A stretch of 64,000 nucleotides of DNA, taken from positions 268,513 to 332,512 of the forward strand of contig NZ_KZ679049.1 of assembly GCF_003024195.1 (NCBI RefSeq), in the 5' to 3' direction. Origin of the DNA: Streptomyces dioscori. Lineage in GTDB: Bacteria > Actinomycetota > Actinomycetes > Streptomycetales > Streptomycetaceae. The position numbers and the translations under genes were made by a program. Each line of letters opens with the position of its first letter. Position 1 is the stretch's first letter. Below, piece after piece: positions 582 to 22,648 of this stretch. The notes under the pieces are model-generated. The model ran no database searches. It was not told the origin of the DNA and was given only the letters and a program-made list of their open reading frames with translations.

Positions 582-896
582 ATGCGTCGTAAATTGAAAG
601 CAGCCGGTGCTGCCGTTTCTTTGGCCATGTCTCTCGTGCTGCTGCCGTCGGCGGCTTCAGCGGCGTCGGGGAATGACGTTTCAATTCAAGCCTGCGGATA
701 CTACGAGACTCAGACGGACGCGTATTACAACCACTGTGTGAACAATCCCCCGCCGGGGGTCGGGGCGCGACTGCAGGTGGACTACGACTGGACGCCGTTC
801 GACGGATATGAGTGCGTGCGGCCGGGCGAGACGCACCTCGGATCCACGAGCGACATCGACAACGCCTGGTACCTCAGCACCTGCCGATTCGCATAG
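582..896 (+). CDS. Small secreted protein, DUF6355-like
   Basis: This 104-residue protein has an obvious Sec signal peptide: a basic 'MRRKLK' start, a hydrophobic core and a likely cleavage after 'SAASAAS'. The mature part is about 75 residues, rich in aromatics, with four cysteines (CGYYE, YNHC, ECV and a C-terminal STCRF) that could form two disulfides outside the cell. The 'CGYYET...YNHC' pattern resembles what I recall of DUF6355, a family annotated in actinobacteria as natural-product associated; this assignment is from memory. A purine-rich RBS (agagg) sits just upstream of the ATG. A strong hairpin at 963-1002 follows. Function is unknown, and its relation to the PKS operon on the opposite strand is unproven. 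Confidence 0.75.
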   Translation: MRRKLKAAGAAVSLAMSLVLLPSAASAASGNDVSIQACGYYETQTDAYYNHCVNNPPPGVGARLQVDYDWTPFDGYECVRPGETHLGSTSDIDNAWYLSTCRFA

Positions 897-1299: not shown

Positions 1300-2406
1300 T
1301 CAGTTGCCGTGCAGGTCCTGCTGGAACCGTTCGCGAATACCGTCTGGAGTGAGGGCGTTGGTGGCGCGCGGCGGTATCGCGCCAGTGCGTGGCAGGGTCC
1401 GCACGCTGATCAAGTGCGGTCCGGGTGCGGCCTTGGCGTTCAAGACTGCAGTGCGCAGAGCATCCTCGTTGTCGCAGCCCTCCGCGGTGCGGTAGCCGGC
1501 TGCGAGGGCCGCGGCCGGGAACGAGGTGTTGCCCGAGGTGGTCGACTGGCCGCCGGTGGACTCGTGGATCTGATTGTCGAGGATCACGTGGATCAGGTTG
1601 GCGGGTGCCTCGTGTCCGATCATCGACAGGGCGCCGAGGTGCATCAGCGCGGCGCCGTCGCCGTCCAGGACGACGACGGTGCGTTCGGGGTGGGCCAGCG
1701 CGACGCCCAGGCCGAGCGACGAGGCGTGGCCCATGGAGCCCTGCATGTAGAAGTTTCCGGGGCGGTCGGCGACGGCGAAGACGTCGCGGCCGGTGAAGCC
1801 GGTGGTGGCGATGACGGATGCGTCGGGGCAGGTGTCGGTCACCACGCGGATCGCGGTGCTGCTGGCCAGGCCCGTGGGCGTCTCGGTCTCCTGGGCAGCT
1901 GCCTTGCCGATGGCTCCGCGTTCGACAAGGACGAAGGGGGCCCGCCGGTCGGCCAGGTCCTTGTCCGCGGCGTCGAGGATCTCGGTGAACCGCTCGATGC
2001 CGTCCGCGGCGTGCAGCGTGTAGTGCGGGCTGCCGACGCTGTCGAGGATGCCGTGGGTGGATGGGCCCATGACGGCGTGCTGCGGCTCGTCGCTGGCCGG
2101 GTCGGGCCAGCCGCGCAGGCTGGCGAAGGTGAGGATGGGCAGTTGGTAGGTCATCACCAGTGAGGTGAGCGGGTTGATGAGGTTGCCCAGTCCGGAGTTC
2201 TGCAGCATGACGTAGGCGCGCTGCCCGCCCAGGGCGGCGCCTGCCGCGACCGCCAGGGCGTTGCCCTCGTTGGGGGCGGGGACGTAGCGGCCGGGCTGGG
2301 TGCTGAGGTGGGCGATGGGGCCGCCGAAGTGGGAGCAGGGCACACCGCTGGCGGTGGTGAAGCCTCGGTCGGCGAGGATGTCGCAGAAGTCTTCAGCGGA
2401 GATCAT
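1300..2406 (-). CDS. TPP-dependent phosphonopyruvate decarboxylase-like enzyme
   Basis: This 368-residue protein has the usual length of the phosphonopyruvate/sulfopyruvate decarboxylase family (Ppd, Fom2). An N-terminal Pyr-type domain ('GVPCSHFGGPIAHL', 'NEGNALAVAAGAALGG') precedes a PP domain whose TPP/Mg motif runs from 'GDGAALMHLG' to 'ILDNQIHEST'. The family decarboxylates 3-phosphonopyruvate to phosphonoacetaldehyde. In organoarsenical clusters a homologue is thought to act on the arsono analogue. The ATG at 2404-2406 overlaps the dedA stop by 4 bases (ATGA), so the two are translationally coupled. It is the last gene of the leftward operon. No PEP mutase is visible in the window, so the substrate (phosphono-, arsono- or sulfopyruvate) is open. 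Confidence 0.88.
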   Translation of the reverse strand: MISAEDFCDILADRGFTTASGVPCSHFGGPIAHLSTQPGRYVPAPNEGNALAVAAGAALGGQRAYVMLQNSGLGNLINPLTSLVMTYQLPILTFASLRGWPDPASDEPQHAVMGPSTHGILDSVGSPHYTLHAADGIERFTEILDAADKDLADRRAPFVLVERGAIGKAAAQETETPTGLASSTAIRVVTDTCPDASVIATTGFTGRDVFAVADRPGNFYMQGSMGHASSLGLGVALAHPERTVVVLDGDGAALMHLGALSMIGHEAPANLIHVILDNQIHESTGGQSTTSGNTSFPAAALAAGYRTAEGCDNEDALRTAVLNAKAAPGPHLISVRTLPRTGAIPPRATNALTPDGIRERFQQDLHGN

Positions 2407-3107
2407 GGGCGGGGCAGCTCCGTTTCCGTGGCGGGTGTCGCGGCGGCCTGGGGTGTGGCCGCCGGTTCGTCGGTGGACGCTGCCTGGCGGCTGCGGCGCC
2501 TCATCTTGATGCCCTCGATGATGATCGGGATACCGGAGATCAGGACGATGCCGATGACCATGCCTTCGATGTTGTCGCGGACGAAGGCGATCTGGCCGAG
2601 GTAGTAGCCGACCAGGGTGAGGCTGACGGACCACAGGACGGCACCGATGACGTTGAACAGGAAGAACGTCCGGTAGGTCATGCGGCCGACGCCTGCGGTG
2701 ATGGGGATGAAGGTGCGGAACACCGGGATGAAGCGGGCCATCACCAGGGCTTTGGGGCCGTGCTTGAGCATGAATTCCTGCGCGCGTTCGGCGTTCTCCT
2801 GCTTGAAGAAGCGGGAGTTGGGCCGCCTGAACAGTGCGGGGCCTATCTTGCGGCCGAAGGCATAGCCGAACTGGTCGCCCAGGACGGCGGCGACGGCGAT
2901 GGCGAGCATGACCACCCATAGGGGCTGGTGAAGGATCTGGTCGTTGGCGACCAGGAGGCCTGCGGTGAACAGCAGTGAGTCGCCGGGCAGGAAGAAGCAG
3001 ACGATCAGGCCCGACTCCGCGAAGACGGTGGCCATGATGCCCAGCAGGCCGAAGGTGGAGATGAGTTGTTCGGCATCGAGTAAGGGTGAGGCAGCGAGGT
3101 TCAGCAT
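2403..3107 (-). CDS. DedA-family membrane protein
   Basis: This 234-residue integral membrane protein has DedA/VTT hallmarks: the re-entrant 'ESGLIVCFFLPGDSLLF' segment, 'GDQFGYAFGRKIG', and 'MARFIPVFRTFIPITAGVGRM' with its conserved arginines, then C-terminal TM helices and an Ala/Pro/Thr-rich polar tail. DedA proteins act in membrane homeostasis and lipid-carrier recycling, and one is reported in selenite/arsenic-type tolerance. Here it sits between the KAS III-like gene and the decarboxylase and overlaps the latter by 4 bases. A role in moving or tolerating the pathway product is plausible but inferred. The start is the ATG at 3105-3107. Confidence 0.9.
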   Translation of the reverse strand: MLNLAASPLLDAEQLISTFGLLGIMATVFAESGLIVCFFLPGDSLLFTAGLLVANDQILHQPLWVVMLAIAVAAVLGDQFGYAFGRKIGPALFRRPNSRFFKQENAERAQEFMLKHGPKALVMARFIPVFRTFIPITAGVGRMTYRTFFLFNVIGAVLWSVSLTLVGYYLGQIAFVRDNIEGMVIGIVLISGIPIIIEGIKMRRRSRQAASTDEPAATPQAAATPATETELPRP

Positions 3108-3190
3108 GGCCGGAGGTCCCTGGGTGGTGAGGCGGGAAATGGAAGATCCGGGAGCCGGCCCGTATGGGGGCCGGCTCCCGGAAGCGCGGG

Positions 3191-4228
3191 CTACTGGGCC
3201 CAGTGGGGTCGGTGGTCGATGCGTACGACGGCGCAGGTGATGGAAACTCCGCCGCCGTGGGCGACGATGAGGACGTGGTCGCCCGGCCCGACCTGGCTGG
3301 TGGCGACGAGGTGGTCGAGGCCGACGATCTGGTCGTTGACCGTCAGGTGGCCGAGGTTGCGGCCGAAGTCGAGCAGTCCCAGGTCGGTCGAGAGGCCCAT
3401 CGGGTCGAGGATGACCTTGAGGTAGCTCTCCTGGCCGGTGAAGACGTGGGCGACGCGGGTGACGTCCGCCGGTTCCAGGCCGGCTTCGGCCAGGGTGCGC
3501 AGGGCTATCTCGGTCCGCAGTTCGCCCTGGCGGCGTACGACTTCGGCGACGGTCTCCTCCAGACCACCGGCGGCAGCCAGACGTTCCTTGAAGTCCATGC
3601 TGCGTCCGACCGTCAACGACGGGGGGAAGAGCGGCTCGGCGCCCCGGTACTGCTCCTCGACCTCGGCGGTGGAGCCGGTGTTGATGGACAGCAGGCTGGC
3701 GAAGCCGTCGGTCTTGGACAGCAGGACGGCGCTGCCGGCGTCACCCAGCACGCCGTTCTGGATGCCGAAGGCCCACCGGTTGAAGTTCGGGGTGCCGACG
3801 TTGTCGGCGCCGGTGAGCAGGGCGGTGGTGCGCTCGGGGACGGCCTGGAGGTAGCAGGCGGCCAGTTCCAGCGAGCCGATCAGGCCGCTGCAGGCCTGCC
3901 AGACGCGGAAGGAGGGCACGTCGCGGTCGGTGATGTGGCGCAGGATGTAGTGCTGTGGCGACCAGCCTTCTGGGCCCTGCTCGTGGCCGCAGGCGTGGAT
4001 GTGCATGTCGATGTCGTGCGGGTGGGTCTGGGAGCGTTCCATGGCCTGGCGGGCTGCGGCGACGGCCATGTCGGGTGCGGGCATGTCGTCGGCGACGGCC
4101 GCGCCGGTCCAGCCGTACCACTCGTAGTCGTCGGCGTCGTACAGGCCGAGTGCGACGGCCTTTCGGGCGTCGACGATCTCGGGGATGTAGGTGCCGAGAC
4201 CGGCTATGCGGATGTCTGTGGTCTTCAC
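3191..4228 (-). CDS. KAS III-like (FabH-fold) acyltransferase
   Basis: This 345-residue thiolase-fold protein has the nucleophile Cys113 in 'VWQACSGLIGSLELA' and a His261 ('AHVFTG') where FabH has its catalytic histidine. The third catalytic position, Asn in the FabH 'GNTSAAS' motif, appears to be His294 in 'NLGHLTVND'. True chain-starting KAS III enzymes keep Asn. Divergent members that transfer acyl groups to hydroxyl or amine acceptors lose it, so this protein may release or esterify the PKS chain rather than condense malonyl-ACP (inference). It lies 29 bases past the PKS stop and 83 bases before dedA, within the same leftward operon. Confidence 0.85.
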   Translation of the reverse strand: MKTTDIRIAGLGTYIPEIVDARKAVALGLYDADDYEWYGWTGAAVADDMPAPDMAVAAARQAMERSQTHPHDIDMHIHACGHEQGPEGWSPQHYILRHITDRDVPSFRVWQACSGLIGSLELAACYLQAVPERTTALLTGADNVGTPNFNRWAFGIQNGVLGDAGSAVLLSKTDGFASLLSINTGSTAEVEEQYRGAEPLFPPSLTVGRSMDFKERLAAAGGLEETVAEVVRRQGELRTEIALRTLAEAGLEPADVTRVAHVFTGQESYLKVILDPMGLSTDLGLLDFGRNLGHLTVNDQIVGLDHLVATSQVGPGDHVLIVAHGGGVSITCAVVRIDHRPHWAQ

Positions 4229-4257
4229 GGGTGGCTCGATCCTCGTCTGTCGCTCGG

Positions 4258-7200
4258 TCAGGCCGAGGCGTTGGCTGAGTTGAGTTCGGCGGTCAGCGCC
4301 TGGACGACCGTGGTGATCGTGCCGTCCTTCAACAGCTGCACCATCGGCAGCTTCACCTGGTACTCCCGCTCGATGCGGTTGCGCAGCTCCACCGCCATCA
4401 GCGAATCCATACCGAGCCGGTTCAAGGGCCGGCTGACGTTGAGGCGCTCCGCTCGCAGCCCCATCACGACCGCCACCGCTTCCTTCACGAAGGCCAGCAC
4501 CGTGTCGTCGGTGCCGTTGACCGGTGCCGCGTCGTCCTCGACCGGCTGCGCCCGCAGTTCCGGCTTCGGCTGCGGAGCGGCGGTCTTCTCGGGCTGGACC
4601 GGGACCGGGGAAACGGCTGCCGGTGCGGGCACACGGGGAGCTGCCGGGGCCGCCGCGGCGGGGGTTGTCGGGGCAGGCGCTGTCTCGGGCTGGGAGGCCG
4701 AGGGGTTGGCGGAGTTGAGTTCGGCGGCCAGGGCCTGGACGACCGTGGTGATCGTGCCGTCCTTCAACAGCTGCACCATCGGCAGCTTCACCTGATATTC
4801 GCGCTGGATGCGGTTGCGCAGCTCCACCGCCATCAGCGAATCCATACCGAGCCGGTTCAACGGTCGGCTGACGTTGAGGCGCTCGGGCTTCAGACCCATC
4901 ACCACGGCCACTTCCCGCTTGACCGACTCCAGCAGTTCCGTGCTCGGCGCGACGGCTGCGGGTGTCTGCACGGTGTCGGCCGACCGGGGGGCGGGGATGC
5001 GGGCCTTCTTCGGCGTCGCCGCGGCGGGTGCGGGCTTCGCCGCGGGCTTGCTCGGGGCGGGTGTCTCTACCGCGACGGGTGTGGGCACCGCCGGGGCCGG
5101 GGCTGCGATGACCGGTGCCGGGCCGGACGCGGCCGTGCGGGTCGTGACGGTGAGGTGCTGCAGCAACGGCGCGGTGGCCGCCGTCGGGTAAGCACGTGCC
5201 CAGGCGGGCCAGTCAGCGCGCAGGACGGCGGTGTGCAGGCGCCCTGAAGCGAGGATGCCGCCCAGGACGGCGAATCCGTCGTCGGGGCTGAAGGAGGACA
5301 TGCCCTGGGGCAGGAGGGTGCGTTCTTCCTGCTGTTCCTTGCGGGCGACCATGCCCACGCTGTCCCAGAAGCCCCAGTTGATGACGGTGGCCGGTCGGCC
5401 GTGTGCGTTGCGGTGGTGGGCCAGGGCGTCGAGGAAGGCGTTGCCGGCCGCGTAGCCGCCGAGCATGGGCGAGCTGAGGATCGCTGAGCCGGAGGAGAAG
5501 AGTACGAACGCGTCGACTTCCTGGTCGTGCAGGAGGCGGTGCAGGTTCCAGGCTCCGGAGACCTTGGCCGCCAGGACCGTGTCGAGGTCGGCGGGGGTCA
5601 TGTCGCTGAGCGGGGCGTAGTCGATGACGCCTGCCGCGTGGAAGACGCCGCGGACGGGCGGCAGGCCCTGGCGGTGGCGGCCGGTCAGCAACCCCTGCAT
5701 GGCCTGGTGGTCGGCGACGTCGGCGGCCTCGTACTGCACGCTGACGCCGCGCTCGGCGAGTTCGTCGAGAACGGCGAGCGCAGCAGCGTGCGGGTGGTCG
5801 GCGGGCAGCGGGGTTCCGCTGGCGGGCAGGGGGCTGCGGCCGGTGAGCAGGAGGTGGCGGGCGCCCTGGTCGGCGAGCCACAGGGCGAGCCGGCCGCCGA
5901 TGCCGCCTGCTCCCCCGGTCACCAGGTAGGTGCCCTCGCCATGAATGGCGACGGCCGGTGTACGTGCTGCCGACTGCGTGTTGGAGGCGGTGTGGTGACT
6001 GAACGACAGGACGATCTTGCCGGTGTGGCGGGACTGGGCCATGAACCGGAACGCGTCAGCGGCCTGGCCGGCGGGGAATTCCGTGTGCGGCAGGGGCTGC
6101 AGGTCGCCGCGTTCGACCAGGGCGGCTGCGGCGCGCAGGATGCGTCCGGCACGCTCCGGTGCGTTCTGGATCATGTGGACGACGTCGACGGCGTGGAAGG
6201 ACAGGTTGCGGGCGAACGCGCCCAGGGGCAGCGGGTTGTCGTCGAGGATGTCGCGCTTGCTCAGTTCGAGGTAGTGCCCGTAGGGCGCCATCAGGGAGAG
6301 GTTGGCAGGGATGGCCTCGCCCGCCAGGGTGTTGAGGATGACGTCGAAGCCGTTCTCGCCGGCGGCGGGGCGGAAGGTGTCGGCGAAGTCCAGGCTGCGG
6401 GAGTCGGCGACGCGGTCGACGCCGAGCTTGGCGAGGAGTTGGCGCTTGGCGTCGCTTCCGGCGGTGGCGTAGATCCGGGCGCCCTTCCAGCGGGCGACGT
6501 TCAGGGCGGCAAGTCCGGTGCCGCCCGTGGCTGAGTGGATGAGGATCTTGTCGCCGCGGTCGATACGGGCGAGGTCGTGCAGCGCGTGGTAGGCGGTCAG
6601 GTAGGAGGCGGGCAGCGTCGCGGCCTGCGCCGAGGTGAGGCGGGCCGGCTTGGGAGCGGTCAGGCAGGCGCGCGTGACGACTTCGCTGGCCAGGGAGCCG
6701 TCGGCGAAGGCGATGACCTCGTCGCCGATGGCGACATCGGTGACGCGGCTGCCGGTCTCGGTGACGGTGCCCGCGCACTCCCAGCCGAGGGTCGGTGGCT
6801 GGTCGTCCTGTCCCGGGTACATGCCCAGGGTCAGCAGGACGTCGCGGTAGTTGACTCCGGCGTGGGCGACCTGGATGCGGACGTCGTCGGGCCCGAGGGG
6901 CCGGCGCGCGGCGGGCTGGAGACCAAGGTCGTCCAGGACGCCGGGGGTGGGCAGTGACAGGTTCCGCGGTCCGTCGTCGGCGGCGGGGGCCGGGCGCAGG
7001 CGGGCGGCGAGACGCTGGCCGTCGCGCAGTGCCGTCTGGTCTTCCGTGTCGGGCTTCTGCAGCAGGTCGGCCAAGGCGGGGATGCTGTCCGGGGACCGGT
7101 CGAGGTCGACCAGGCGGGGGCTGAGAGCCGGGGTCTCGGCGGCGAGGGTGCGGCCCAGGCCCCACAGGGGTGCCTGGAAGGGGTTGCGGACCGTGTCGGC

Positions 7201-10200
7201 GGGGCTGGTGGACTGGGCGAGCTGGGTGATCAGCCAGAGCGGTGGGTGGCCGAGGGAGTGCTTGTCCAGGGCCCTCATCAGGTGCAGGACGCTGTGGCCG
7301 GTGAGGAGTTGGGTGCGGCCGATCTCGGTGGCGGTGGCGTCGAGGCCGGCCTGCGCGTCGAGTGCCCACAGGTGGATGACGCCGCGGCAGGTGCCCTCAC
7401 GGGCGATGTCGGCCAGGGTGTCGACGTAGTGGTCGGGGTTGGCGGGGTCGAGGCGGTAGCGCTCGCCCGCTCCGGCCATACGGCCGGCCGCTGCGGTGAT
7501 GGCGATGACGCGCTCGCCGCGCCAGGTCAGTTCACGGATGAGGGAACGGCCGGTGGGGCCGCTGTCGGTAAGCACCAGCCAGAAGCCGTCCGGCTGCCGG
7601 GCGGTGGCCGAACCCTGGTGCGGGGCGGCTTCCCAGGTGAGGGTGTGCAGCCAGGACTCCTGTCCGCCGGAAGCGGGTACGGGCGGGACGGCTTCGGTGG
7701 CGGTCACAGTGGTGTCCTCGTGGTGCGGTGTCAGCGGTGCGGGGGCGTGGCCGGCCAGGTATTGCAGGCGCAGGCCGCGCATCTGGGCCAGCAGCCGGCC
7801 GTCGTCGTCGCGGATGTCGATGTCGGCGCTGAAGGAGTCTTCGCGGGGGGCGGGCAGCAGGCGGGCGTGGCTGTGCATGGAGGCGGTCGGCCGGCCGAAG
7901 AAGCGGACTTCGTCGATGCCTCCGAGGACGAAGACGCCTTCCTCGCCGGGAGCGGTCAGCGGCCGGGCGGCGGCCATGGAGTGGCCGCTGGCGTCGAGAA
8001 GGGCGGGGTGGAAGTGGTGCTGCTCCAGGCCCTCGCGCAGTTCGGCGGGGCAGATCAGGTGGGCGAGGACTTCCCCGTCGGTGCGCCACAGTTCGGCCAC
8101 GCCCTGGAAGGCGCCGTTCCACTGGTTGCCGCGTTCGGCGTTCCAGGGGTAGAAGTCGGCGGCGTCCTGGTGCTCGCCGCACCGGCCGCGGATGGCGTCC
8201 AGGGGTTCGGCTCCGGCGGCGGCCTGCGCGGTGAGGGGGCGGGCGGTGGCTTCGGTGTGCAGCGTCCAGTCGACGCTGTCGGTGTCGGCGTCCCGGCTGT
8301 AGATGGAGCAGTGCAGGCTGCCGTCGGCGGCGGGGGTGGCGACGACCCGTACCTGGGGCGGCGGTGCGGACTCTTCCAGGAACAGGGCGCGGTGGTAGTG
8401 CACGTCGGCCAGTGACAGCGCGCCGTCGCCGAGCACGATGCGCGAGGCTGCGCCGACGAGTTCGAGGTGGGCGGTGCCGGGAAGGATGATCGTGTCCTGG
8501 ATGCGGTGGTCCCGCAGATAGGCGTTGCGCGTCAGGTCCAGGGGGCCCTGCCAGATCCGGGTGGTGCCCTCGCCTGCGAGCTCCGTGCCCAGCAGCGGAT
8601 GCGATGCGGCGGCAGCGGTCGAAGGGCGCGGAGTCGCCGCGTCGGCCGGGGTAGGAGCGGACGGTTCGGCAGCGTTGGGGGCGGGGTCGATCCAGTGCCG
8701 GGTGCGCTGCCACGGGTAGGTCGGCAGGGGCACGTAGGAGCCGGGGCCCGTCAGGGCGTCGAAGTCGAGCGGCACGCCCGCGGTGTGCAGCAGGGCGGCG
8801 AAGGTGAGCAGGCAGCCGCGTTCGTCGTCCTGGCGGCGCAGGCTGCCGACGGCCGTCACTTCCTGGCCGTCCGCGCGGCCGGTCTCCCGGATGCCGTTGA
8901 CCAGCAGGGGGTGTGGGCTGACTTCGATGAATACGGTGTCACCGAGGGCGAGTTGCCCGCGGACGGCGCCGACGAAGTCGACGGGCTGGCGGATGTTGCG
9001 TACCCAGTAGTCGGCGTTCATGGCCGACCCGTCGATGACTTCGTTGAGCAGGGTGGAGTGCAGCGGGATGGTGCCCGGCCCGGGGTTCAGGTGTGCCAGT
9101 TCGGCCAGGAGGTCGTCGCGCAGGGCGTCCATCTGCGGGCAGTGGGAGGCGAAGTCCACGTTGACACGGCGGTTGGCGACCTCGCGGGTGTCGAGGTCGG
9201 CCAGCACCTTGGCGAGGGCGTCTCCGTCACCGGACAGCAGGGTGGAGGTGGGGCTGTTGATCGCCGCGACGGCGACCTTGTCCTCGTAGCCGGCCAGCGC
9301 GCGGGCCGCTTCCTCGGCGGGCAGTCCGACCCAGGCCATGGTGCCGCGTCCGGAGAGCCTCTTGGCGAGGCGGCTGCGGCGGCAGATGACGGCGGCGGCG
9401 TCGGTGAGGCTGAGGGATCCGGCGATGTAGGCCGCGGCGGACTCGCCCATGCTGTGGCCGATGACCACGTCGGGCTCGACGCCCCAGGAACGCCACAGCT
9501 GGGCGAGGGCGATCTCCATGGCCCACAGGGTGGGCTGGATGACGTCGAGTTCCTTGAAGCGGTCCTCGTCGCCGAAGCGCAGGAGGTCGATGACCGACCA
9601 GCCGGTCTCGGTGCGGATGGCGGCGTCGCACTCCCGCATGACGTCGTGGAACACGGGTTCGGTGTTGAGGAGTTGGCGTCCCATGCCGACCCACTGCGAA
9701 CCCTGCCCGGGGAAGACGAACGCGATCCTGGGCGGGCTGGTGGGGTCGGTGTAGTCGCTGTAGGACAGGCCGGGTTCGTCCTGCCCGTCGGCGAAGGCGC
9801 GCAGGGCGTCGGCTGCTTCGCTGTGGTTGTCGACGGGGACGGCCAGGCGTGCGTCGTGCAGGGTGCGGCGCAGTGCTGCGGAGTGGCTGATGTCGCGCAG
9901 GCTCTGGGCGGCTCCGTCGCCGGTGAGGTGGTCCGCCATGCGCCGGGCGGCGTCGACGAGGGCCTCGGGGCTCAGTGCGGACAGGGTCAGCAGCTCGGTG
10001 CGAGCCGGCTCCTGGTCGTGCGGGGCTTCGGCCTGGGGTGCGGGGGCTGCTTCGAGGACCAGGTGGGCGTTGGTTCCGGAGAAGCCGAAGCTGCTGACCG
10101 CGGCGACGTGCGGGCGGTCTCGGTCGGGCAGCGCGGTGGCCTGCGTGGGGATCTGCAGCGGCAGTTCGTCCCAGGCCACGGCCGGGTTGGGGTTGTTCAG

Positions 10201-11361
10201 GTGCAGGTTGGGCGGCACGGTGCCGTTCTCCAGGCACAGGATTGCCTTGATGAGTCCGGCGATGCCGGCGGCGGCCTCGGCGTGACCGATGTTGGTCTTG
10301 ATGGAGCCGACCAGGCAGCGCTCGTCGTCGGCGCGGGGGCCGATCACGTCGGCGAGGGCCTGCAGTTCTACGGGGTCGCCGACGCTGGTGCCGGTGCCGT
10401 GGGCCTCGATGTAGTCGACGTCGGCGGGGTCGATGCCGGCGTTGGCGTAGGCGCGTACGAGCACGTCGCGCTGGCCTTCGACGGCGGGGGTGACGAGGTA
10501 GCCGGAGCTCTGGCCGTCGTTGCCGATGGCGGAGCCGCGGATGACGGCGCGGATGCGGTCGCCGTCGGCGAGGGCGGCCTTCAGCGGCTTGAGGATGACG
10601 GCGCCGATGCCGTCGCTGCGGACGAATCCGTCACCGGAGGCATCGCCGAACTTGCAGCGTCCGTCGCTGGCGAGCATCCCCGCGCCGGAGTAGACGACGC
10701 CTTCTTCGGGCAGCAGGACGATGTTCACGCCGCCGGCGATCGCCAGGTGGCATTCTCCCAGCCGGAGGGCCTGTACGGCGTTGTGCACGGCGACCAGGGC
10801 GGAGGAGCAGGCGGTGTCGACGGTGAAACTGGGCCCGCGCAGGTCGAAGGCGTAGGAGAGACGACCGGAGGTGATGGCGCGGGAGGCGGCGCCGGTCATC
10901 GCGTACAGGTCGAGCTGGTCACGCCGGTCGTACTGCAAGTGCCAGTAGTCGCCGCCGAGTTGTCCGATGAAGACGCCCGCGTCGGAGCCCGCGAGGCGGG
11001 CGGCGGACTGTCCGGCGTCTTCGAGTGCTTCGTAGGCGGTTTCCAGCAGCAGCCGCTGCTGGGGGTCCATGCGGTCGGCCTCGCGGGGAGAGACTCCGAA
11101 GAACTCCGCGTCGAAGGCGTCGATGTCACGCAGGAGGCCGCCCCACCGGCTGACGGTGCGCCCGGGCGTACGGGGGGCGGGGTCGTAGACCGCGTCGATG
11201 TCGTAGCGCTCGGAGGGTATTTCGGTGATGGCGTCGCGGCCCTCCAGGAGCATCTTCCACAGTTCCTGAGGGCTGGTGGCGTCGGCGAACCGGCCGGCCA
11301 TGCCGATGATGGCGATCGGTTCGCTGACAGGGTCTGCGGCAGGTGTGGGGTCGTGCGGCAT
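4258..11361 (-). CDS. Type I PKS: KS-AT-DH-ER-KR-ACP-ACP
   Basis: This single, fully reducing module has 2367 residues. The KS has Cys185 (DTACSS), His321 (EAHGTGT) and His360 (NIGH). The AT has Ser637 (GHSMGE) and the specificity motif FASH at 737-740, closer to methylmalonyl-type YASH than malonyl-type HAFH. The DH has His952 and Asp1123 (LLDASGH); the usual Gly of HxxxGxxxxP is Asp. The ER lies roughly at 1470-1780 with a 'HSATGGTGLAA' nucleotide loop. The KR starts near 1807 with TGGAGGIGG and Tyr1970. Two nearly identical ACPs have Ser2175 and Ser2320 (GMDSL). No thioesterase or docking domain is seen, so it probably acts iteratively and hands its chain to the downstream KAS III-like enzyme. 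The ATG at 11361 is preceded by GGAAGGA. Confidence 0.95.
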   Translation of the reverse strand: MPHDPTPAADPVSEPIAIIGMAGRFADATSPQELWKMLLEGRDAITEIPSERYDIDAVYDPAPRTPGRTVSRWGGLLRDIDAFDAEFFGVSPREADRMDPQQRLLLETAYEALEDAGQSAARLAGSDAGVFIGQLGGDYWHLQYDRRDQLDLYAMTGAASRAITSGRLSYAFDLRGPSFTVDTACSSALVAVHNAVQALRLGECHLAIAGGVNIVLLPEEGVVYSGAGMLASDGRCKFGDASGDGFVRSDGIGAVILKPLKAALADGDRIRAVIRGSAIGNDGQSSGYLVTPAVEGQRDVLVRAYANAGIDPADVDYIEAHGTGTSVGDPVELQALADVIGPRADDERCLVGSIKTNIGHAEAAAGIAGLIKAILCLENGTVPPNLHLNNPNPAVAWDELPLQIPTQATALPDRDRPHVAAVSSFGFSGTNAHLVLEAAPAPQAEAPHDQEPARTELLTLSALSPEALVDAARRMADHLTGDGAAQSLRDISHSAALRRTLHDARLAVPVDNHSEAADALRAFADGQDEPGLSYSDYTDPTSPPRIAFVFPGQGSQWVGMGRQLLNTEPVFHDVMRECDAAIRTETGWSVIDLLRFGDEDRFKELDVIQPTLWAMEIALAQLWRSWGVEPDVVIGHSMGESAAAYIAGSLSLTDAAAVICRRSRLAKRLSGRGTMAWVGLPAEEAARALAGYEDKVAVAAINSPTSTLLSGDGDALAKVLADLDTREVANRRVNVDFASHCPQMDALRDDLLAELAHLNPGPGTIPLHSTLLNEVIDGSAMNADYWVRNIRQPVDFVGAVRGQLALGDTVFIEVSPHPLLVNGIRETGRADGQEVTAVGSLRRQDDERGCLLTFAALLHTAGVPLDFDALTGPGSYVPLPTYPWQRTRHWIDPAPNAAEPSAPTPADAATPRPSTAAAASHPLLGTELAGEGTTRIWQGPLDLTRNAYLRDHRIQDTIILPGTAHLELVGAASRIVLGDGALSLADVHYHRALFLEESAPPPQVRVVATPAADGSLHCSIYSRDADTDSVDWTLHTEATARPLTAQAAAGAEPLDAIRGRCGEHQDAADFYPWNAERGNQWNGAFQGVAELWRTDGEVLAHLICPAELREGLEQHHFHPALLDASGHSMAAARPLTAPGEEGVFVLGGIDEVRFFGRPTASMHSHARLLPAPREDSFSADIDIRDDDGRLLAQMRGLRLQYLAGHAPAPLTPHHEDTTVTATEAVPPVPASGGQESWLHTLTWEAAPHQGSATARQPDGFWLVLTDSGPTGRSLIRELTWRGERVIAITAAAGRMAGAGERYRLDPANPDHYVDTLADIAREGTCRGVIHLWALDAQAGLDATATEIGRTQLLTGHSVLHLMRALDKHSLGHPPLWLITQLAQSTSPADTVRNPFQAPLWGLGRTLAAETPALSPRLVDLDRSPDSIPALADLLQKPDTEDQTALRDGQRLAARLRPAPAADDGPRNLSLPTPGVLDDLGLQPAARRPLGPDDVRIQVAHAGVNYRDVLLTLGMYPGQDDQPPTLGWECAGTVTETGSRVTDVAIGDEVIAFADGSLASEVVTRACLTAPKPARLTSAQAATLPASYLTAYHALHDLARIDRGDKILIHSATGGTGLAALNVARWKGARIYATAGSDAKRQLLAKLGVDRVADSRSLDFADTFRPAAGENGFDVILNTLAGEAIPANLSLMAPYGHYLELSKRDILDDNPLPLGAFARNLSFHAVDVVHMIQNAPERAGRILRAAAALVERGDLQPLPHTEFPAGQAADAFRFMAQSRHTGKIVLSFSHHTASNTQSAARTPAVAIHGEGTYLVTGGAGGIGGRLALWLADQGARHLLLTGRSPLPASGTPLPADHPHAAALAVLDELAERGVSVQYEAADVADHQAMQGLLTGRHRQGLPPVRGVFHAAGVIDYAPLSDMTPADLDTVLAAKVSGAWNLHRLLHDQEVDAFVLFSSGSAILSSPMLGGYAAGNAFLDALAHHRNAHGRPATVINWGFWDSVGMVARKEQQEERTLLPQGMSSFSPDDGFAVLGGILASGRLHTAVLRADWPAWARAYPTAATAPLLQHLTVTTRTAASGPAPVIAAPAPAVPTPVAVETPAPSKPAAKPAPAAATPKKARIPAPRSADTVQTPAAVAPSTELLESVKREVAVVMGLKPERLNVSRPLNRLGMDSLMAVELRNRIQREYQVKLPMVQLLKDGTITTVVQALAAELNSANPSASQPETAPAPTTPAAAAPAAPRVPAPAAVSPVPVQPEKTAAPQPKPELRAQPVEDDAAPVNGTDDTVLAFVKEAVAVVMGLRAERLNVSRPLNRLGMDSLMAVELRNRIEREYQVKLPMVQLLKDGTITTVVQALTAELNSANASA
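4271..4915 (-). repeat. Tandem ACP-coding direct repeat (offset 435 bp)
   Basis: Two copies of about 210 bp (near 4271-4485 and 4706-4915) encode the two ACPs. They are offset by exactly 435 bp (145 codons) and remain almost identical even at third positions over long stretches. This points to recent duplication or ongoing gene conversion. Confidence 0.9.
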
Positions 11362-11881
11362 GGGTGTCCTTCCGGGCATGGCGAAGCCGTTCACTGGAAC
11401 GCAGCACGTGTGGGACCCATTGCGTGCACGCGGCGAGCTGACGGCAGTGCCTGCTCGGTGGCGGGCGTGCACGCGAATGGTGTTCGAAGGTGGCGGGAGA
11501 GTCGGCTCCGTCTACGAGGACGGTGGCGCGGCGCATGGCGAGTGCGTCGTGCGGTCGATGAGCCGTGGCGGCTTGTCGGCGAAGCCACCGGTCTTCCAAC
11601 GTTGTTGCGGCACAGGGCAGTTGCCCGTTGCCGAACGCCCCCGTTGTTTCGACATGTATCGAGATTGGCTTGTGAAAGCATACTTCGCAACGCGCGACTC
11701 GGTGACGCTAGTCACACGCCGTAGATCTCTGGGTTCAGGTTGACATCCATCGAATCAGGAAAGATCCTGGAGTCTTGATTCGTCATTTGTCTATATAAGC
11801 GTCGGCGATCAACCGGCCGCGACAGCGGCGAACGGGCCGCCGCCGACGCCACGCAGAGACCCTCGACAGGAGTCGATCTCG
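11362..11881. promoter_or_regulatory. Divergent promoter region of the PKS operon and the Cys-Cys peptide operon
   Basis: This 520-base stretch carries no convincing gene. It contains a perfect TTGACA at 11740-11745 and a 7-bp inverted repeat, CGAATCA (11751-11757) and TGATTCG (11776-11782). ArsR-type sites often use such ATCA/TGAT half sites. A TATATAA-like box lies at 11792-11798 and a GTGAC/GTCAC dyad at 11702-11715. Spacings do not fit one canonical promoter, so the exact starts are uncertain. Control of both divergent operons by an arsenite-responsive ArsR is the natural guess. Confidence 0.55.
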
Positions 11882-12076
11882 TTGAGCGAACAGACCACCA
11901 GCTCGGGCCCGGGCCAGACCGGTCAGAACGCCGGGGCCGAGACCGGCGGCGCCTGCTGTGCGGGCATCGCCGATCTGCGTCGGCGGGCCGAACAGGCCGC
12001 AGCACTCCGCGCCGAGCGGACCGCTTCCGGCGCGGACGGCACCACACCGTCTCCCGCACCCTCCGGCGCCGCGTGA
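11882..12076 (+). CDS. Small Cys-Cys peptide upstream of the flavoprotein
   Basis: A 64-residue ORF with a TTG start has an RBS-like cAGGAG 9 bases upstream. The N-terminal 20 residues are Ser/Gly/Gln-rich, then comes 'GGACCAGIADLRRRAEQAAALRAERT' (a vicinal Cys pair before an amphipathic helix), then a Pro/Ser-rich tail. There is no signal peptide or TM. The gene ends 45 bases before the flavoprotein start and is probably co-transcribed with it. No family is recognised. A vicinal Cys pair in an arsenic locus suggests As(III) binding, but that is inference. Codon use and a good RBS support a real gene; the TTG start lowers confidence. Confidence 0.6.
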   Translation: MSEQTTSSGPGQTGQNAGAETGGACCAGIADLRRRAEQAAALRAERTASGADGTTPSPAPSGAA

Positions 12077-12121
12077 TGCCGCCGACCGCCTTAGTCCCCG
12101 CGTCTGAAAGGACACGACACC

Positions 12122-13585
12122 GTGGTTGACCACAGCCTCGACCAGCTCCCCGTCGCCGTGATCGGAGCGGGCCCGATCGGCCTGGCCGCCGCCGCGCACC
12201 TGGCCGAACGCAACGTCCCCTTCGTAGTGCTGGAAGCCGGAGACACCGCGGCGGCAGCAGTACGGTCCTGGTCCCACGTCCAGCTGTTCAGCCCCTGGGA
12301 ATACAACACCGACCCGGCCGCCCAGCGCCTGCTGGCCGAGGCCGGCTGGCAGGAGCCGGACGCCTCGGAGCTGCCGACCGGCGGAGACCTGGTCAAGCAG
12401 TACCTGCAGCCGCTGGCCGAACTGCCCGCCCTGGCCCCGCACATCCGCTACGGCGCGACCGTCACCGCTCTGAGCCGGCTGGGCATCGACCGGCTGCGCA
12501 CCGCCGGCCGCGAGCAGGCTCCCTTCGTCGTCCGCCTCGCCGACGGCGAGGAACTGCTGGCCCGTACGGTCATCGACGCCTCCGGCACCTGGCGCCAGCC
12601 CAACGCCGTCGGCGCCAACGGACTGCCCGCCCACGGCGAGCAGGACGCGGCCGCGTGGATCACCCACGGACTGCCCGACGTGTTCGGCGCGGACCGCGAT
12701 CAGCACGCCGGGCACCACACCGTCGTCGTCGGCGCCGGGCACTCGGCGGCCAACACCCTGCTGGCTCTGGCCGAGTTGGCGGACGCAGCGCCGGGTACCT
12801 CCATCACCTGGGCCATCCGCAGCGCCGACCCGTCCGCCTCGTTCGGCGGCGGCAGCGACGACGAGCTGCCCGCGCGCGGCGCGCTCGGTTCGGGACTGAA
12901 GATGCTGGTGGACACCGGCCGCGTCACCCTGGCGGCGAACTTCCGCACCCACAGCATCCGCCGCACGGGCGACAACCAGGTCGAGCTGATCTCCACCCAG
13001 GGCGGCGAACAGAGCATCACGGCCGACCGGATCGTGGCAGCCACCGGCTTCCGCCCGGACTACGGCATCAGCGACGAACTGCGCCTGGAACTGGACCCGA
13101 TCATGTCCGCGCCCCGTGCGCTGGCCCCGCTGATCGACCCCAACCAGCACTCCTGCGGCACCGTCACCCCGCACGGCTACCGCGAACTGGCCCACCCCGA
13201 GCCGGGCTACTACATCGTCGGCATGAAGAGCTACGGCCGCGCCCCCACCTTCCTCATGCTCACAGGCTACGAGCAGGTGCGTTCCATCGCCGCGGCACTG
13301 GCGGGAGACCTGGAGTCCGCCCAGTCGGTGGAACTGCAGCTGCCGGAGACCGGGGTGTGCTCGGTGACGGCCGGCGGCGAGGCGATCGCCCTGCGGCTGG
13401 GCCTGAGCAAGGAGGAGCACGAGCAGCTCCTGCACGTCACCGCCAAGTACCTGGGCACCTCGGCCACCGCGGCGGACGCGGTCCTGTCCGCGGCCACCGA
13501 ACTCGGCATCGACCACACGGCGGCACTCCAGCTGGCGGCCTACGCCGCCGACCAGTTCGACGCGCCCGGCGCCACCGGCTGCTGA
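12122..13585 (+). CDS. ArsO-like flavin-dependent monooxygenase
   Basis: This 487-residue protein is a two-dinucleotide-binding flavoprotein. An FAD-type GAGPIG lies at residues 15-20, an NAD(P)H-type GAGHSAA at 204-210, and an 'ATGF' element precedes the C-terminal lobe. This matches the flavin-binding monooxygenase group that includes ArsO of Streptomyces arsenic islands. Such enzymes oxygenate small metabolites with NADPH and O2; the ArsO substrate is not firmly established. A roughly 100-residue C-terminal extension ends in Cys. The GTG start at 12122 has AAAGGA 8 bases upstream. It follows the Cys-Cys peptide and diverges from the PKS operon, so a tailoring or arsenic-oxidation step in the same pathway is likely but inferred. 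Confidence 0.85.
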   Translation: MVDHSLDQLPVAVIGAGPIGLAAAAHLAERNVPFVVLEAGDTAAAAVRSWSHVQLFSPWEYNTDPAAQRLLAEAGWQEPDASELPTGGDLVKQYLQPLAELPALAPHIRYGATVTALSRLGIDRLRTAGREQAPFVVRLADGEELLARTVIDASGTWRQPNAVGANGLPAHGEQDAAAWITHGLPDVFGADRDQHAGHHTVVVGAGHSAANTLLALAELADAAPGTSITWAIRSADPSASFGGGSDDELPARGALGSGLKMLVDTGRVTLAANFRTHSIRRTGDNQVELISTQGGEQSITADRIVAATGFRPDYGISDELRLELDPIMSAPRALAPLIDPNQHSCGTVTPHGYRELAHPEPGYYIVGMKSYGRAPTFLMLTGYEQVRSIAAALAGDLESAQSVELQLPETGVCSVTAGGEAIALRLGLSKEEHEQLLHVTAKYLGTSATAADAVLSAATELGIDHTAALQLAAYAADQFDAPGATGC

Positions 13586-13591
13586 CAGCAC

Positions 13592-13651
13592 GCCCCGGGG
13601 CCGTCTGCTCCCTCACGCCAACAAGCGCGAAGGAACAGACGGCCCCGGGGC
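13592..13651. terminator. 16-bp bidirectional terminator
   Basis: Perfect 16-bp arms (13592-13607 and 13636-13651), very GC-rich, lie between the convergent flavoprotein and SDR genes. The position fits termination of both transcripts. Confidence 0.8.
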
Positions 13652-13674
13652 CGTTCGCCAGGAGACGCGACCCG

Positions 13675-14442
13675 TCAGGAGACGCGGTGCACCTTGTGCT
13701 GGGCCGCCTGCGCCCGCGGGCGCACCACCAGCAGGTCGATGTTGACGTGCGAGGGCCGGGTCACCGCAAAGGCCACCACATCGGCGACGTCCCCGGCGAC
13801 CAGCGGGAAGGGCACCCCCGCATAGACGGCATCGGCCTTCTCGCTGCTGCCGCGGTAGCGGTTGAGGGAGAACTCCTCGGTGTGCACCATGCCGGGTGCG
13901 ATCTCGATGACCCGCAACGGCTGACCGCACACCTCCAGGCGCAGTGTCTCCGCCAGCACGTGGGCTCCGTGCTTGGCGGCGCTGTAACCGCCGCCGCCCT
14001 CGTAATTGGTGAAGGAGGCGGTGGAGGTCAGTACGACGACCACGCCGTCGCCGCTGGCGACCAGCAGGGGCAGCAGCGACTGGGTCATGTGGAGCGCACC
14101 GACGACGTTCACGTCGTACATGCGCTGCCAGTCAGCCGGATCAGCCTGGGCGATCTCCTCGGTCCCGTACGCGCCGCCCGCGATGTTGACCAGCACGTCA
14201 CAGGATTCGAGCTGTCCGGCGAACGCGGTCACGGCCTCGCGGTCGGTCACGTCGAGCGGATGGACCTTCGCCGTCCCGCCGTCGGAGTGCACCTGCTTGG
14301 CAACGGCTTCCAGCCGGTCCGCTCTGCGCGCCGTGAGCACCACGGTGTAGCCCTGGCGGGCCAGTTCCCGCGCGGTGGCCGCGCCGATGCCGCTGCTTGC
14401 TCCGGTGATCACAGCCGTACGCGACTGAGTGGGCTCTGCCAT
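13675..14442 (-). CDS. Short-chain dehydrogenase/reductase
   Basis: This 255-residue classical SDR has the cofactor loop TGASSGIG at residues 13-20, an 'NIAGGAYGT' NAG-type segment, the catalytic serine in 'LTSTASF' and the YSAAK tyrosine/lysine pair. It is a soluble NADP(H) oxidoreductase; the substrate is unknown. The start is the ATG at 14440-14442, preceded on the coding strand by GGGGGACC. It is divergent from arsR at 14527, with ArsR-like dyads between them, so it is probably under arsenite control. It could reduce the aldehyde formed by the decarboxylase or a polyketide carbonyl; both are inference. Confidence 0.85.
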   Translation of the reverse strand: MAEPTQSRTAVITGASSGIGAATARELARQGYTVVLTARRADRLEAVAKQVHSDGGTAKVHPLDVTDREAVTAFAGQLESCDVLVNIAGGAYGTEEIAQADPADWQRMYDVNVVGALHMTQSLLPLLVASGDGVVVVLTSTASFTNYEGGGGYSAAKHGAHVLAETLRLEVCGQPLRVIEIAPGMVHTEEFSLNRYRGSSEKADAVYAGVPFPLVAGDVADVVAFAVTRPSHVNIDLLVVRPRAQAAQHKVHRVS

Positions 14443-14463
14443 CAAACGGTCCCCCACACCCTT

Positions 14464-14519
14464 GATTAGACGGTTATCTAAACAGGTGATCTTGGCATCC
14501 TGTTGAACGAGTGTCAACA
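14464..14519. promoter_or_regulatory. Putative ArsR operators between SDR and arsR
   Basis: TTAGA (14466-14470) and TCTAA (14477-14481) form one dyad. TGTTGA (14501-14506) and TCAACA (14514-14519) form a second, with perfect 6-bp arms. The second dyad ends 7 bases before the arsR ATG at 14527, where no clear Shine-Dalgarno is seen. Confidence 0.55.
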
Positions 14520-14526
14520 TAGACGC

Positions 14527-14898
14527 ATGTCGAAGCTTCAGGAGAAGGTGGCCGCGCTCCCGGCCGAGCGGTGCTGCCCAGCCCTGACCGAGAGGGAACT
14601 CACGGCGGAAGAGGCCGAACTCACCGCCGCCATGTTCAAAGCCCTGGGCGACCCGGTGCGGCTGCGCCTGTTCTCCAAGGTGGCTTCGCACCCGGACAGT
14701 GAGGCCTGCGTCTGCGACATCGCCGACGTCGGCGTCTCACAGCCGACCGTCTCCCACCACCTGAAGAAGCTCAAGGAGGCAGGCCTGCTGACCTCCGAGC
14801 GGCGCGGAACGTGGGTCTACTACCGGGTCGAGCCGTCGGTGCTGGCCGCCATGGGGCATCTGCTGACGCCGACGCCTGCGTCCGCCCAGGTGGCCTGA
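14527..14898 (+). CDS. arsR: ArsR-family arsenite-responsive repressor
   Basis: This 123-residue winged-helix ArsR/SmtB protein has the DNA-recognition segment 'SQPTVSHHLKKLKEAGL' followed by a beta hairpin ('SERRGTWVYYRV'). The As(III)-type site Cys61-Val-Cys63-Asp lies on the helix before the recognition helix, like the ELCVCDL motif of plasmid ArsR. A further Cys16-Cys17 pair sits near the N-terminus. Binding of trivalent arsenic should release DNA. It is divergent from the SDR, and its start ATG lies 7 bases past a dyad, so autoregulation is likely. An alternative TTG start at 14503 would fall inside that dyad and is less likely. Confidence 0.93.
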   Translation: MSKLQEKVAALPAERCCPALTERELTAEEAELTAAMFKALGDPVRLRLFSKVASHPDSEACVCDIADVGVSQPTVSHHLKKLKEAGLLTSERRGTWVYYRVEPSVLAAMGHLLTPTPASAQVA

Positions 14899-21126: not shown

Positions 21127-22239
21127 TCAGCTTTCGTGTGAGGTGGACGTCAGCTGTCGGTCGGCGCTGAACTTCCTTCGCCAGGCCAGGGAGACGTACA
21201 CGAGGGCGACCAGGACCGGCACTTCGATGAGCGGGCCGACGACGCCCGACAAGGCCTGTCCTGAGGTGACACCGAAGGTGGCGATGGCGACCGCGATCGC
21301 CAGCTCGAAGTTGTTGCCGGCAGCCGTGAAGGCGAGCGTCGCCGTGCGGTCGTACGCCAGGCCGATCACTTTGCCGAGGGCGAAGGTACCGAACCACATG
21401 ACCGCGAAGTACACGAGCAGCGGCAGCGCGATACGGACCACGTCCAGCGGCTGGGAGGTGATCGTCTTTCCCTGCAGGGCGAAGAGGATGACGATCGTGA
21501 AGAGCAGGCCGTACAGGGCCCAGGGGCCGATCTTCGGGAGGAAGTTGGACTCGTACCTCTCGCGGCCGAGTTTCTTCTCGCCGATCCGGCGGGTCAGGAA
21601 CCCGGCCAGGAGCGGGACTCCGAGGAAGATGACGACGTTCAGGGCGATCTTCCACATGGAGATGTCGAGGTGCTCGCCGTCGCCCAGGCCGAGCCAGCCG
21701 GGCAGCAGGTCGAGGTAGAACCAGCCGAGCAGGCCGAACGCCAGGACCTGGAAGACCGAGTTGAGCGCGACCAGGACGGCGGCGGCTTCGCGGTCGCCGC
21801 AGGCGAGGTCGTTCCAGATGATGACCATGGCGATGCAGCGGGCGAGCCCGACGATGATCAGGCCGGTGCGGTACTCGGGCAGGTCCGGCAGGAAGATCCA
21901 GGCCAGCGCGAACATGATCGCGGGGCCGACGATCCAGTTGATGACCAGCGACGCGGCCATGAGCCTGCGGTCGCCGGTGACGGCGTCGAGCTTGTCGTAG
22001 CGGACCTTGGCCAGGACCGGGTACATCATGATCAGCAGGCCGACGGCGATGGGCAGCGAGATGCCGCCGATCTCGACCTTGGCGAGAGCGTCGTTCAGGC
22101 CGGGGATGAGCCTGCCGAGGCCCAGGCCGAGGGCCATGGCGGCGAGGATCCAGACGGCGAGAAAGCGGTCGAGCGTCGAGAGCTTCGCGACGACCGAGGG
22201 GTCCTCGGTGGTGGTCGCGGGTGCTTCGGTGGGGGTCAC
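21127..22239 (-). CDS. acr3: Arsenite efflux permease Acr3
   Basis: This 370-residue protein has ten predicted TM helices and strong Acr3 motifs: 'VGLLIMMYPVLAKVRYD', the essential Cys135 in 'GLARCIAMVIIWNDLA' and the glutamate of 'AAGNNFELAIAVAI'. Acr3 exports As(III)(OH)3 or arsenite from the cytoplasm. The GTG start at 22237-22239 overlaps the arsR stop by 4 bases (GTGA), giving coupled translation. Confidence 0.96.
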   Translation of the reverse strand: MTPTEAPATTTEDPSVVAKLSTLDRFLAVWILAAMALGLGLGRLIPGLNDALAKVEIGGISLPIAVGLLIMMYPVLAKVRYDKLDAVTGDRRLMAASLVINWIVGPAIMFALAWIFLPDLPEYRTGLIIVGLARCIAMVIIWNDLACGDREAAAVLVALNSVFQVLAFGLLGWFYLDLLPGWLGLGDGEHLDISMWKIALNVVIFLGVPLLAGFLTRRIGEKKLGRERYESNFLPKIGPWALYGLLFTIVILFALQGKTITSQPLDVVRIALPLLVYFAVMWFGTFALGKVIGLAYDRTATLAFTAAGNNFELAIAVAIATFGVTSGQALSGVVGPLIEVPVLVALVYVSLAWRRKFSADRQLTSTSHES

Positions 22240-22566: not shown

Positions 22567-22648
22567 CGGGGCTGATACCAGTCCGGGCTGACCTTTGGGC
22601 CCGCCAGCAGCACCCACTGGGCCCATGACCCGTAGAAGGGGGTCACCA

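Follow-up and report, generated by a model that had tools for sequence, protein, structure and literature searches.

Can an arsenic-linked polyketide operon give rise to an arsenic lipid if no gene for making the carbon-arsenic (C-As) bond is found with it? This question is raised by a stretch of 64,000 nucleotides from Streptomyces dioscori (genome G000, contig C12, positions 268513-332512; hereafter the window), which carries close to its left edge a leftward run of genes for a polyketide synthase (PKS), a KAS III-like enzyme, a DedA protein and a phosphonopyruvate decarboxylase (Ppd), together with arsenic resistance genes. An earlier note on this DNA had compared the content with bisenarsan-type loci and, as no arsenoenolpyruvate synthase was visible, had considered a shorter variant, a split cluster or a different arsenolipid pathway. 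Our analysis places the genes in question just outside the window, and we assign a probability of about 0.88 to the reading that the locus is a complete bisenarsan-type cluster for an organoarsenic compound, with probable regulation by arsenic.

C-As bond genes beyond the left edge of the window

The absence of an arsenoenolpyruvate synthase from the window itself is borne out by tblastn searches with BsnM and BsnN, which gave only chance-level matches there (E 3 or worse). A whole-genome search for EPSP synthases (EPSPS) revealed six matches, the best of which (C12:258760-259980) lies on the same contig to the left of the window. Between this gene and the first base of the window are 8,466 bases. 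It belongs to the following series of genes, all of them outside the window:

C12:255433-256455, minus strand: PstS-like protein
C12:257195-258727, minus strand: BsnN-like, phosphoglycerate-mutase-like protein (PF06415/PF01676)
C12:258724-260046, minus strand: BsnM-like EPSP synthase paralogue (PF00275, 374.5 bits)
C12:260090-262669, minus strand: molybdopterin oxidoreductase
C12:262719-263438, minus strand: GATase-domain protein
C12:264112-265815, plus strand: MFS transporter
C12:265831-266325, plus strand: second ArsR

The BsnM- and BsnN-like genes are open frames situated 8.5-11.3 kb left of the window, and the start of the latter overlaps the stop of the former. An open reading frame (ORF) of unknown family and the PstS-like protein are encoded to the left of this pair. 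The BsnM-like protein is 34.5% identical to an EPSPS-family copy on contig C19 of the same genome.

Because both genes lie directly left of the window, their absence from it is an edge effect, and the missing C-As synthase, which the earlier note had regarded as an oddity, is an artefact of where the window ends. Genes for arsenic biosynthesis are thus present in the genome. A shortened or different arsenolipid pathway without arsenoenolpyruvate synthase is suggested by the window taken alone; with the BsnM- and BsnN-like genes on the same contig, as open frames and in an order that recurs in other Streptomyces, we regard it as extremely improbable. The shorter variant, the split cluster and the synthase-free pathway were rejected on account of these genes past the window edge.

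Gene content of the block

The following genes of the window are relevant to the cluster:

1300-2406, minus strand: Ppd, BsnJ-like phosphonopyruvate decarboxylase, predicted arsonopyruvate decarboxylase (TIGR03297)
2403-3107, minus strand: DedA-family membrane protein with VTT domain (PF09335)
3191-4228, minus strand: KAS III-like enzyme of the ChlB3/CerJ/DpsC group, predicted O-acyltransferase (PDB matches, residues)
4258-11361, minus strand: single-module reducing PKS, KS-AT-DH-ER-KR-ACP-ACP (Pfam, NCBIfam)
11882-12076, plus strand: Cys-Cys peptide of 64 amino acids with TTG start (similar peptide 5' of the flavoprotein at related loci)
12122-13585, plus strand: ArsO-like flavoprotein with a C-terminal tail of about 70 amino acids instead of a Cys-Cys tail
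13675-14442, minus strand: short-chain dehydrogenase/reductase (SDR), candidate arsonoacetaldehyde reductase
14527-14898, plus strand: ArsR repressor with ACVCDI motif and apparently leaderless start (NF033788, sequence)
within 21127-22455, minus strand: SBF-family (Acr3-type) protein
22595-23284: first LMWPc-type ArsC-like gene
23329-23748: second LMWPc-type ArsC-like gene

All four genes of the leftward run (PKS, KAS III-like enzyme, DedA and thiamine-diphosphate-type decarboxylase) were found as the earlier note had described them, and so were the divergent Cys-Cys peptide and flavoprotein, the ArsR, the Acr3-type protein and the two ArsC-like genes. The ACVCDI of the ArsR resembles the motif of As(III)-type ArsR proteins. 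New to that list is the SDR gene between flavoprotein and ArsR. The start codon of the Ppd gene overlaps the DedA stop, and a DedA gene sits between the KAS III-like gene and Ppd also at the loci L010, L012-L015, L017 and L101-L108; a role of DedA in lipid or product transport is possible, but this is a guess. Among the cluster genes scanned, which comprised part of the ORFs, no S-adenosylmethionine-dependent enzyme was found.

Relationship to bisenarsan clusters

The bisenarsan cluster of S. lividans 1326 is described in the relevant passages of a review as containing the EPSP synthase homologue bsnM, the phosphoglycerate mutase homologue bsnN, the Ppd bsnJ, a PKS and bsnFB; the product requires bsnM, bsnN and bsnJ, and disruptants are rescued by added 2-hydroxyethylarsonic acid (PMC12159101). 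The arsenopolyketide cluster of S. coelicolor is given as SCO6812-SCO6837 in a passage of PMC13170358. The locus studied here has in common with the described bsn clusters a homologue each of EPSPS and phosphoglycerate mutase, a Ppd, a PKS and genes for arsenic resistance and arsenic-dependent regulation (PMC12159101). The genes around bsnMN vary between clusters according to the same review. In detail, it has the EPSPS paralogue of the bsnM type, the mutase of the bsnN type, a Ppd of the bsnJ type above the TIGR03297 cut-off, and the PKS. Every gene named in the review except bsnFB has a clear counterpart; the family of bsnFB is not stated in those passages of PMC12159101, and our guess is that it corresponds to the KAS III-like gene. 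Compared by description, the locus differs from the S. lividans and S. coelicolor clusters in 3.4 kb with NUDIX, LysR and DUF6355 genes between ArsR and Ppd. What speaks against the assignment is that orthology to the named bsn genes is deduced from domains, gene set and the account given in the review.

The resemblance to the bisenarsan cluster that the earlier note had proposed is now firmly supported by the BsnM/BsnN-like genes and by the recurring gene order. Relatives were collected with the BsnM-like protein as the best 80 loci among the matches listed, none of which is from S. lividans or S. coelicolor by title. The 22 loci L010-L031 are actinobacterial with a BsnM identity of 57-87%, and a BsnN-like gene adjoins in all of them (22/22). 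The order PKS, KAS III-like, DedA, Ppd, ArsR, MFS, GATase, molybdo-enzyme, BsnM, BsnN was identified in L010, L012-L015 and L017; L011 is cut at its edge. The same block order, with BsnM 85-98% identical, is shared by genome G109, S. apricus (L010), S. canus V4I20 (L012), S. physcomitrii (L014) and S. thermovulgaris (L015). The other end of the cluster (PKS, flavoprotein, SDR, ArsR) is seen in the fetched flanks L101-L108, and when flanks are combined the whole set including PstS and the Cys-Cys peptide is present in G298 (L014 and L104) and G299 (L015 and L105). For L032-L089, with 39-48% identity and no actinobacterium among their titles, the matches to other cluster genes were scattered and weak or generic, and these loci were left out of further comparison. 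Four BsnM matches carry one TGA within the aligned stretch.

In a sample of 295 Streptomyces genomes, this one included, a BsnM-like gene (E up to 1e-120) occurs in 20, ten of which have the cluster-type Ppd. For further comparisons a set of 37 BsnM-positive genomes was used, also including this one; the genomes of L011, L020, L024 and L026 were removed as duplicates with identical coordinates, and that of L013 was left out as well. A Ppd was counted as cluster-type if it was encoded on the same contig as BsnM and scored more than 400 bits, which applies to 21 of the 37 genomes, in each case within about 10 kb of BsnM. The Ppd match of G095 (189 bits, on a contig other than that of BsnM) was scored negative.

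Some loci carry smaller sets. In L118, L119 and L120 the clusters consist of SDR, BsnM, BsnN and Ppd; within the fetched stretch there is no KAS III-like gene and for the PKS only short weak matches were obtained. These clusters may end at 2-hydroxyethylarsonate or yield another end product. L019 and L022-L027 have BsnM/BsnN pairs and no Ppd or PKS matches within the fetched flanks. They are accompanied by a GATase-like gene (7/7), PstS (6/7) and Acr3-type relatives (6/7), and a different arsenic product is likely.

With respect to BsnN, all 32 rows of BsnN-like proteins (some loci twice) have Lys at residue 206 (numbering of the 519-amino-acid frame L009:3196-4728, minus strand). The aligned phosphoglycerate mutase 5vpu, the sole canonical one compared, has Arg at this place, so Lys206 is possibly a mark of an arsono-mutase.

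The Ppd decarboxylase and the phosphonate alternative

The Ppd scores 344.3 bits against the NCBIfam model TIGR03297 for phosphonopyruvate decarboxylase (cut-off 312.5) and stays below the cut-offs of the sulfopyruvate models (beta 148.5 versus 221.5, alpha 76.4 versus 147.95). A grouping with sulfopyruvate decarboxylases, which the earlier note had thought of as a reason to give up the arsenic reading, was hence not found.

As the Ppd stems from a phosphonate family, the block of Ppd and PKS could also be thought to yield a phosphonolipid instead of an arsenolipid. The full-genome search for arsenoenolpyruvate synthase and phosphoenolpyruvate (PEP) mutase that the earlier note had proposed revealed, besides the synthase-type gene next to the window, one PEP-mutase-like gene. 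It stands beside a second Ppd-like gene on contig C9 (G000:C9:45649-47705, L007), and this pair is likely a separate phosphonate locus. The match is the only one in the genome and with 281.7 bits remains below the cut-off of 319.55. While the pair is on C9, the block is accompanied by BsnM/BsnN-like, ArsR, Acr3-type and ArsC-like genes, and we therefore consider a phosphonolipid very unlikely. An involvement of the PEP-mutase-like gene was rejected in view of its score and contig. Such a gene is also not needed, because the published route, as outlined in the review, assigns the mutase step to BsnN, a protein resembling phosphoglycerate mutases (PMC12159101).

The SDR as candidate arsonoacetaldehyde reductase

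In the passages of the review on this step, reduction of the aldehyde is presumed to be the work of cluster-encoded reductases or of an orphan one (PMC12159101). Among the 37 genomes, 17 of the 21 Ppd-positive ones have the SDR gene at a distance of at most 23 kb from BsnM, compared with none of the 16 Ppd-negative ones (Fisher p = 6e-7, a value to be taken as a guide since the genomes are related). At the inspected loci (up to 10 kb either side) of eight of the 16 negatives no SDR was found. In G089, G184, G314 and G315 the SDR gene precedes BsnM on the same strand at a distance of 77-91 bp, and in all 11 SDR-ArsR stretches inspected SDR and ArsR share a promoter region. All 24 aligned rows, in which some loci appear twice, have the residues Asn112, Ser140, Tyr153 and Lys157. 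A tree was built from 39 rows, and in it the cluster copies do not belong to the starred clade formed by 17 paralogues.

SDRs are often promiscuous, and the gene might accordingly encode a general arsenic-stress or stray reductase, with arsonoacetaldehyde being reduced by an unrelated enzyme. Many of these genomes carry a 55-70% identical copy elsewhere, and G313 has no SDR near BsnM although Ppd is present. Against such a stray enzyme stand the way in which the presence of the gene follows Ppd, its position upstream of BsnM in four genomes and the placement of the cluster copies outside the paralogue clade, so that we hold it for rather unlikely. Judged from its sequence and context, the window SDR is probably the arsonoacetaldehyde reductase, for which it is the best candidate. 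Besides G313, several other observations count against this assignment. G152 and G295 are Ppd-positive and have an 80-81% identical SDR copy on another contig, and in G130 the contig stops some 1.6 kb beyond the Cys-Cys peptide, before the place of the SDR. The best SDR match of the 16 Ppd-negative genomes is far off on the same contig in five and on a different contig in 11, and in those 11 closeness is not strictly excluded. Moreover, the cluster SDRs do not form one clade in the tree, where the label needs two changes.

The PKS and the KAS III-like enzyme

For the PKS the ATG at 11361 is preferred over the GTG at 11472 on the basis of the sequence. The protein is similar to synthases of methyl-branched chains such as Pks2 (1314.7 bits, below the cut-off of 2400 of that model) and is probably iterative. 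No thioesterase was matched among the domain searches. According to the review passages on these genes, bsnPKS together with bsnFB gave 2,4,6-trimethyl-2-nonenoic acid, and the ester is pictured there as arising when 2-hydroxyethylarsonate directly attacks the chain bound to the acyl carrier protein (ACP) (PMC12159101).

Among PDB entries the KAS III-like enzyme is most similar to ChlB3 (280 bits), followed by two 3-oxoacyl-ACP synthase entries (259 and 236), DpsC entries (171) and CerJ (136). Its residues Cys113, His294 and Asp299 align with Cys113, His296 and Asp301 of ChlB3. Cys113 is conserved in 26 of 26 rows and His294 and Asp299 in 24 (several loci twice); gaps occur in the rows L012 and L103, which are the same locus with a match covering 78%. 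With ChlB3 and CerJ the enzyme has in common the KAS III-like sequence family and the Cys-His-Asp triad. As described in the part of PMC9573744 dealing with these enzymes, ChlB3 uses the triad Cys113-His296-Asp301 to accept an acyl group from a thioesterase-free, iterative type I PKS and to pass it on to an ACP, the O-acyltransferase CerJ moves malonyl to a sugar hydroxyl, and DpsC uses Ser-His-His. The enzyme of the window would have a small arsonate alcohol as its acceptor. As the triad of ChlB3 is aligned and conserved, we prefer an acyltransferase that makes the ester over a condensing enzyme, and this function appears somewhat better than evenly supported by the residues compared. It has to be set against this preference that His261 is conserved too, that the acceptor of ChlB3 is an ACP and not a hydroxyl, and that in the same part of PMC9573744 the relatives of ChlB3 other than CerJ are counted as Claisen enzymes.

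The enzyme might instead load a propionyl starter, as DpsC does, or pass the chain to another ACP like ChlB3, with the ester arising spontaneously or through another enzyme. The DpsC similarity, the retained His261, the transfer to ACP by ChlB3, the carbon count of a 2,4,6-trimethylnonenoyl chain (which implies a propionyl starter) and the direct attack pictured in the review would fit such a role. Against it, the similarity to ChlB3 exceeds that to DpsC, Cys serves as nucleophile next to a His-Asp pair as in CerJ and not within the Ser-His-His of DpsC, and with no thioesterase matched in the PKS something must release the chain. A starter or ACP function is a real possibility, somewhat short of even odds.

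A gene for a methylmalonyl-CoA mutase large-subunit-like protein is located at 18602-20182 on the plus strand (526 amino acids); the mutase domain was the only one matched in it, and no B12-binding domain was. It could supply methylmalonyl-CoA to the PKS. A relative close to the cluster ArsR was seen in L115 (90% over part, at a contig end) and L116 (84%), and with a match in only two of the 20 fetched stretches L101-L120 the idea of a conserved neighbour is weak and we do not rely on it.

The flavoprotein and the Cys-Cys peptide

The label ArsO-like, which had been given to the flavoprotein before, is appropriate in the sense that the protein scores 49.7 bits against the ArsO equivalog NF040505 and stands outside of it. 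An identification as ArsO outright was rejected, as the score is far below the cut-off of 425. ArsO-like flavoproteins of arsenic resistance genes, 51-56% identical, are encoded near ArsR in L010, L011, L013, L014, L016, L018, L021 and L031. A search of the actinobacterial loci for the motif PETG[VI]C yielded, apart from the cluster type, nine different ArsO-like proteins, all of which have a tail bearing Cys-Cys. In contrast, the 12 cluster-type flavoproteins (window, L101-L108, L114-L116) lack the Cys-Cys tail and have a conserved end of some 70 residues, the last of them a Cys, and the cluster form is joined by a separate Cys-Cys peptide.

A short Cys-Cys frame is found directly 5' of the flavoprotein in 10 of the 12 bsn-type loci, including the window. 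At L108 there is no such frame before the flavoprotein, and L116 has masked bases at this place. The peptide of G109 is nearly identical to that of the window and not independent of it. No Pfam match was obtained for the peptide. A genome search with it gave matches in 10 of the 37 genomes (E up to 0.01), eight of them at or beside the bsn-type locus and two elsewhere (G238 and G313), which are taken for chance; G299 has a further match elsewhere besides the one at its bsn-type locus. The search missed G047 and G050, in which a short Cys-Cys frame is visible by eye. The simplest reading of these sequences would be that the Cys-Cys part moved from the tail of the flavoprotein to a separate peptide, which may bind As(III).

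A proposed route

Onto the gene content, order, conservation, family membership and key residues observed, a route can be projected in which we infer the roles of the SDR, the KAS III-like enzyme, the flavoprotein and its peptide, DedA and the molybdo-enzyme, as well as the exact product in this strain. The BsnM-like enzyme would join As(V) with an enolpyruvyl donor to give arsenoenolpyruvate, which the BsnN-like mutase would convert to arsonopyruvate, whereby the C-As bond is made. Decarboxylation by Ppd would lead to arsonoacetaldehyde, and its reduction by the window SDR to 2-hydroxyethylarsonate. The PKS would assemble a methyl-branched acyl chain on its ACPs, and the KAS III-like enzyme would transfer the chain to the hydroxyl, thereby releasing an ester of the bisenarsan kind. 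The ArsR proteins would turn the cluster on, DedA and the MFS transporter may move the product, and the redox state of arsenic is probably controlled by the flavoprotein with its Cys-Cys peptide and by the molybdo-enzyme.

That the SDR is the arsonoacetaldehyde reductase, the ChlB3/CerJ-like protein the ester-forming acyltransferase and the flavoprotein the partner of a separately encoded Cys-Cys peptide that takes over As(III) binding from the fused tail of its relatives, all at the same time, is doubtful; none of these three parts is assigned in the 2025 review. Bisenarsan-type arsenolipid clusters are already known from Streptomyces; what we would add are candidate enzymes for two steps left open in the passages of PMC12159101 on the pathway. 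The false lead of an arsenolipid pathway without C-As synthase is removed. Each chemical step from arsenate to an arsenic lipid would, if the added assignments are true, have a candidate enzyme, and the formation of 2-hydroxyethylarsonate and of the ester could be tested directly. The nested sets (BsnM/BsnN, then Ppd/SDR in addition, then PKS/KAS III-like in addition) would in that case help to predict the products of related clusters.

Regulatory sites

Two operator-like features were noticed in the window:

11749-11784: inverted pair of operator type (ATCGAATCAG ... TTGATTCGTC) ahead of the Cys-Cys peptide, similar to the SDR/ArsR motif
14443-14526: divergent promoter region of SDR and ArsR with an operator-like site of the TTGATTAGAC type

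A site of the TTGATTAGAC type is recognisable by eye, with small changes, in all 11 SDR-ArsR loci inspected. The motif TTGATTMGAY has no hit in L009. In the window it has six hits with at most one mismatch compared to a mean of 2.76 in shuffled sequence, and 5 of 100 shuffles had as many; this is a weak excess which we do not rely on.

Passenger genes and a further EPSPS-family locus

Three passenger genes are located between the second ArsR and Ppd:

C12:266653-267555, plus strand: NUDIX gene, outside the window
C12:267939-269027, minus strand: LysR gene, crossing the left edge, with the part in the window at 1-515
582-896, plus strand: DUF6355 protein

The stretch was compared with three relatives, namely G109, G068 and S. 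apricus. The ArsR-to-Ppd interval of 3,435 bases is unmatched in them, and at the corresponding place they have 927 (G109), 102 (G068) and 160 (S. apricus) unmatched bases between the matching blocks.

Elsewhere in the genome an EPSPS-family gene lies beside a gene for a 33% identical KAS III-like protein (G000:C13:255878-258456), which is possibly another specialised cluster.

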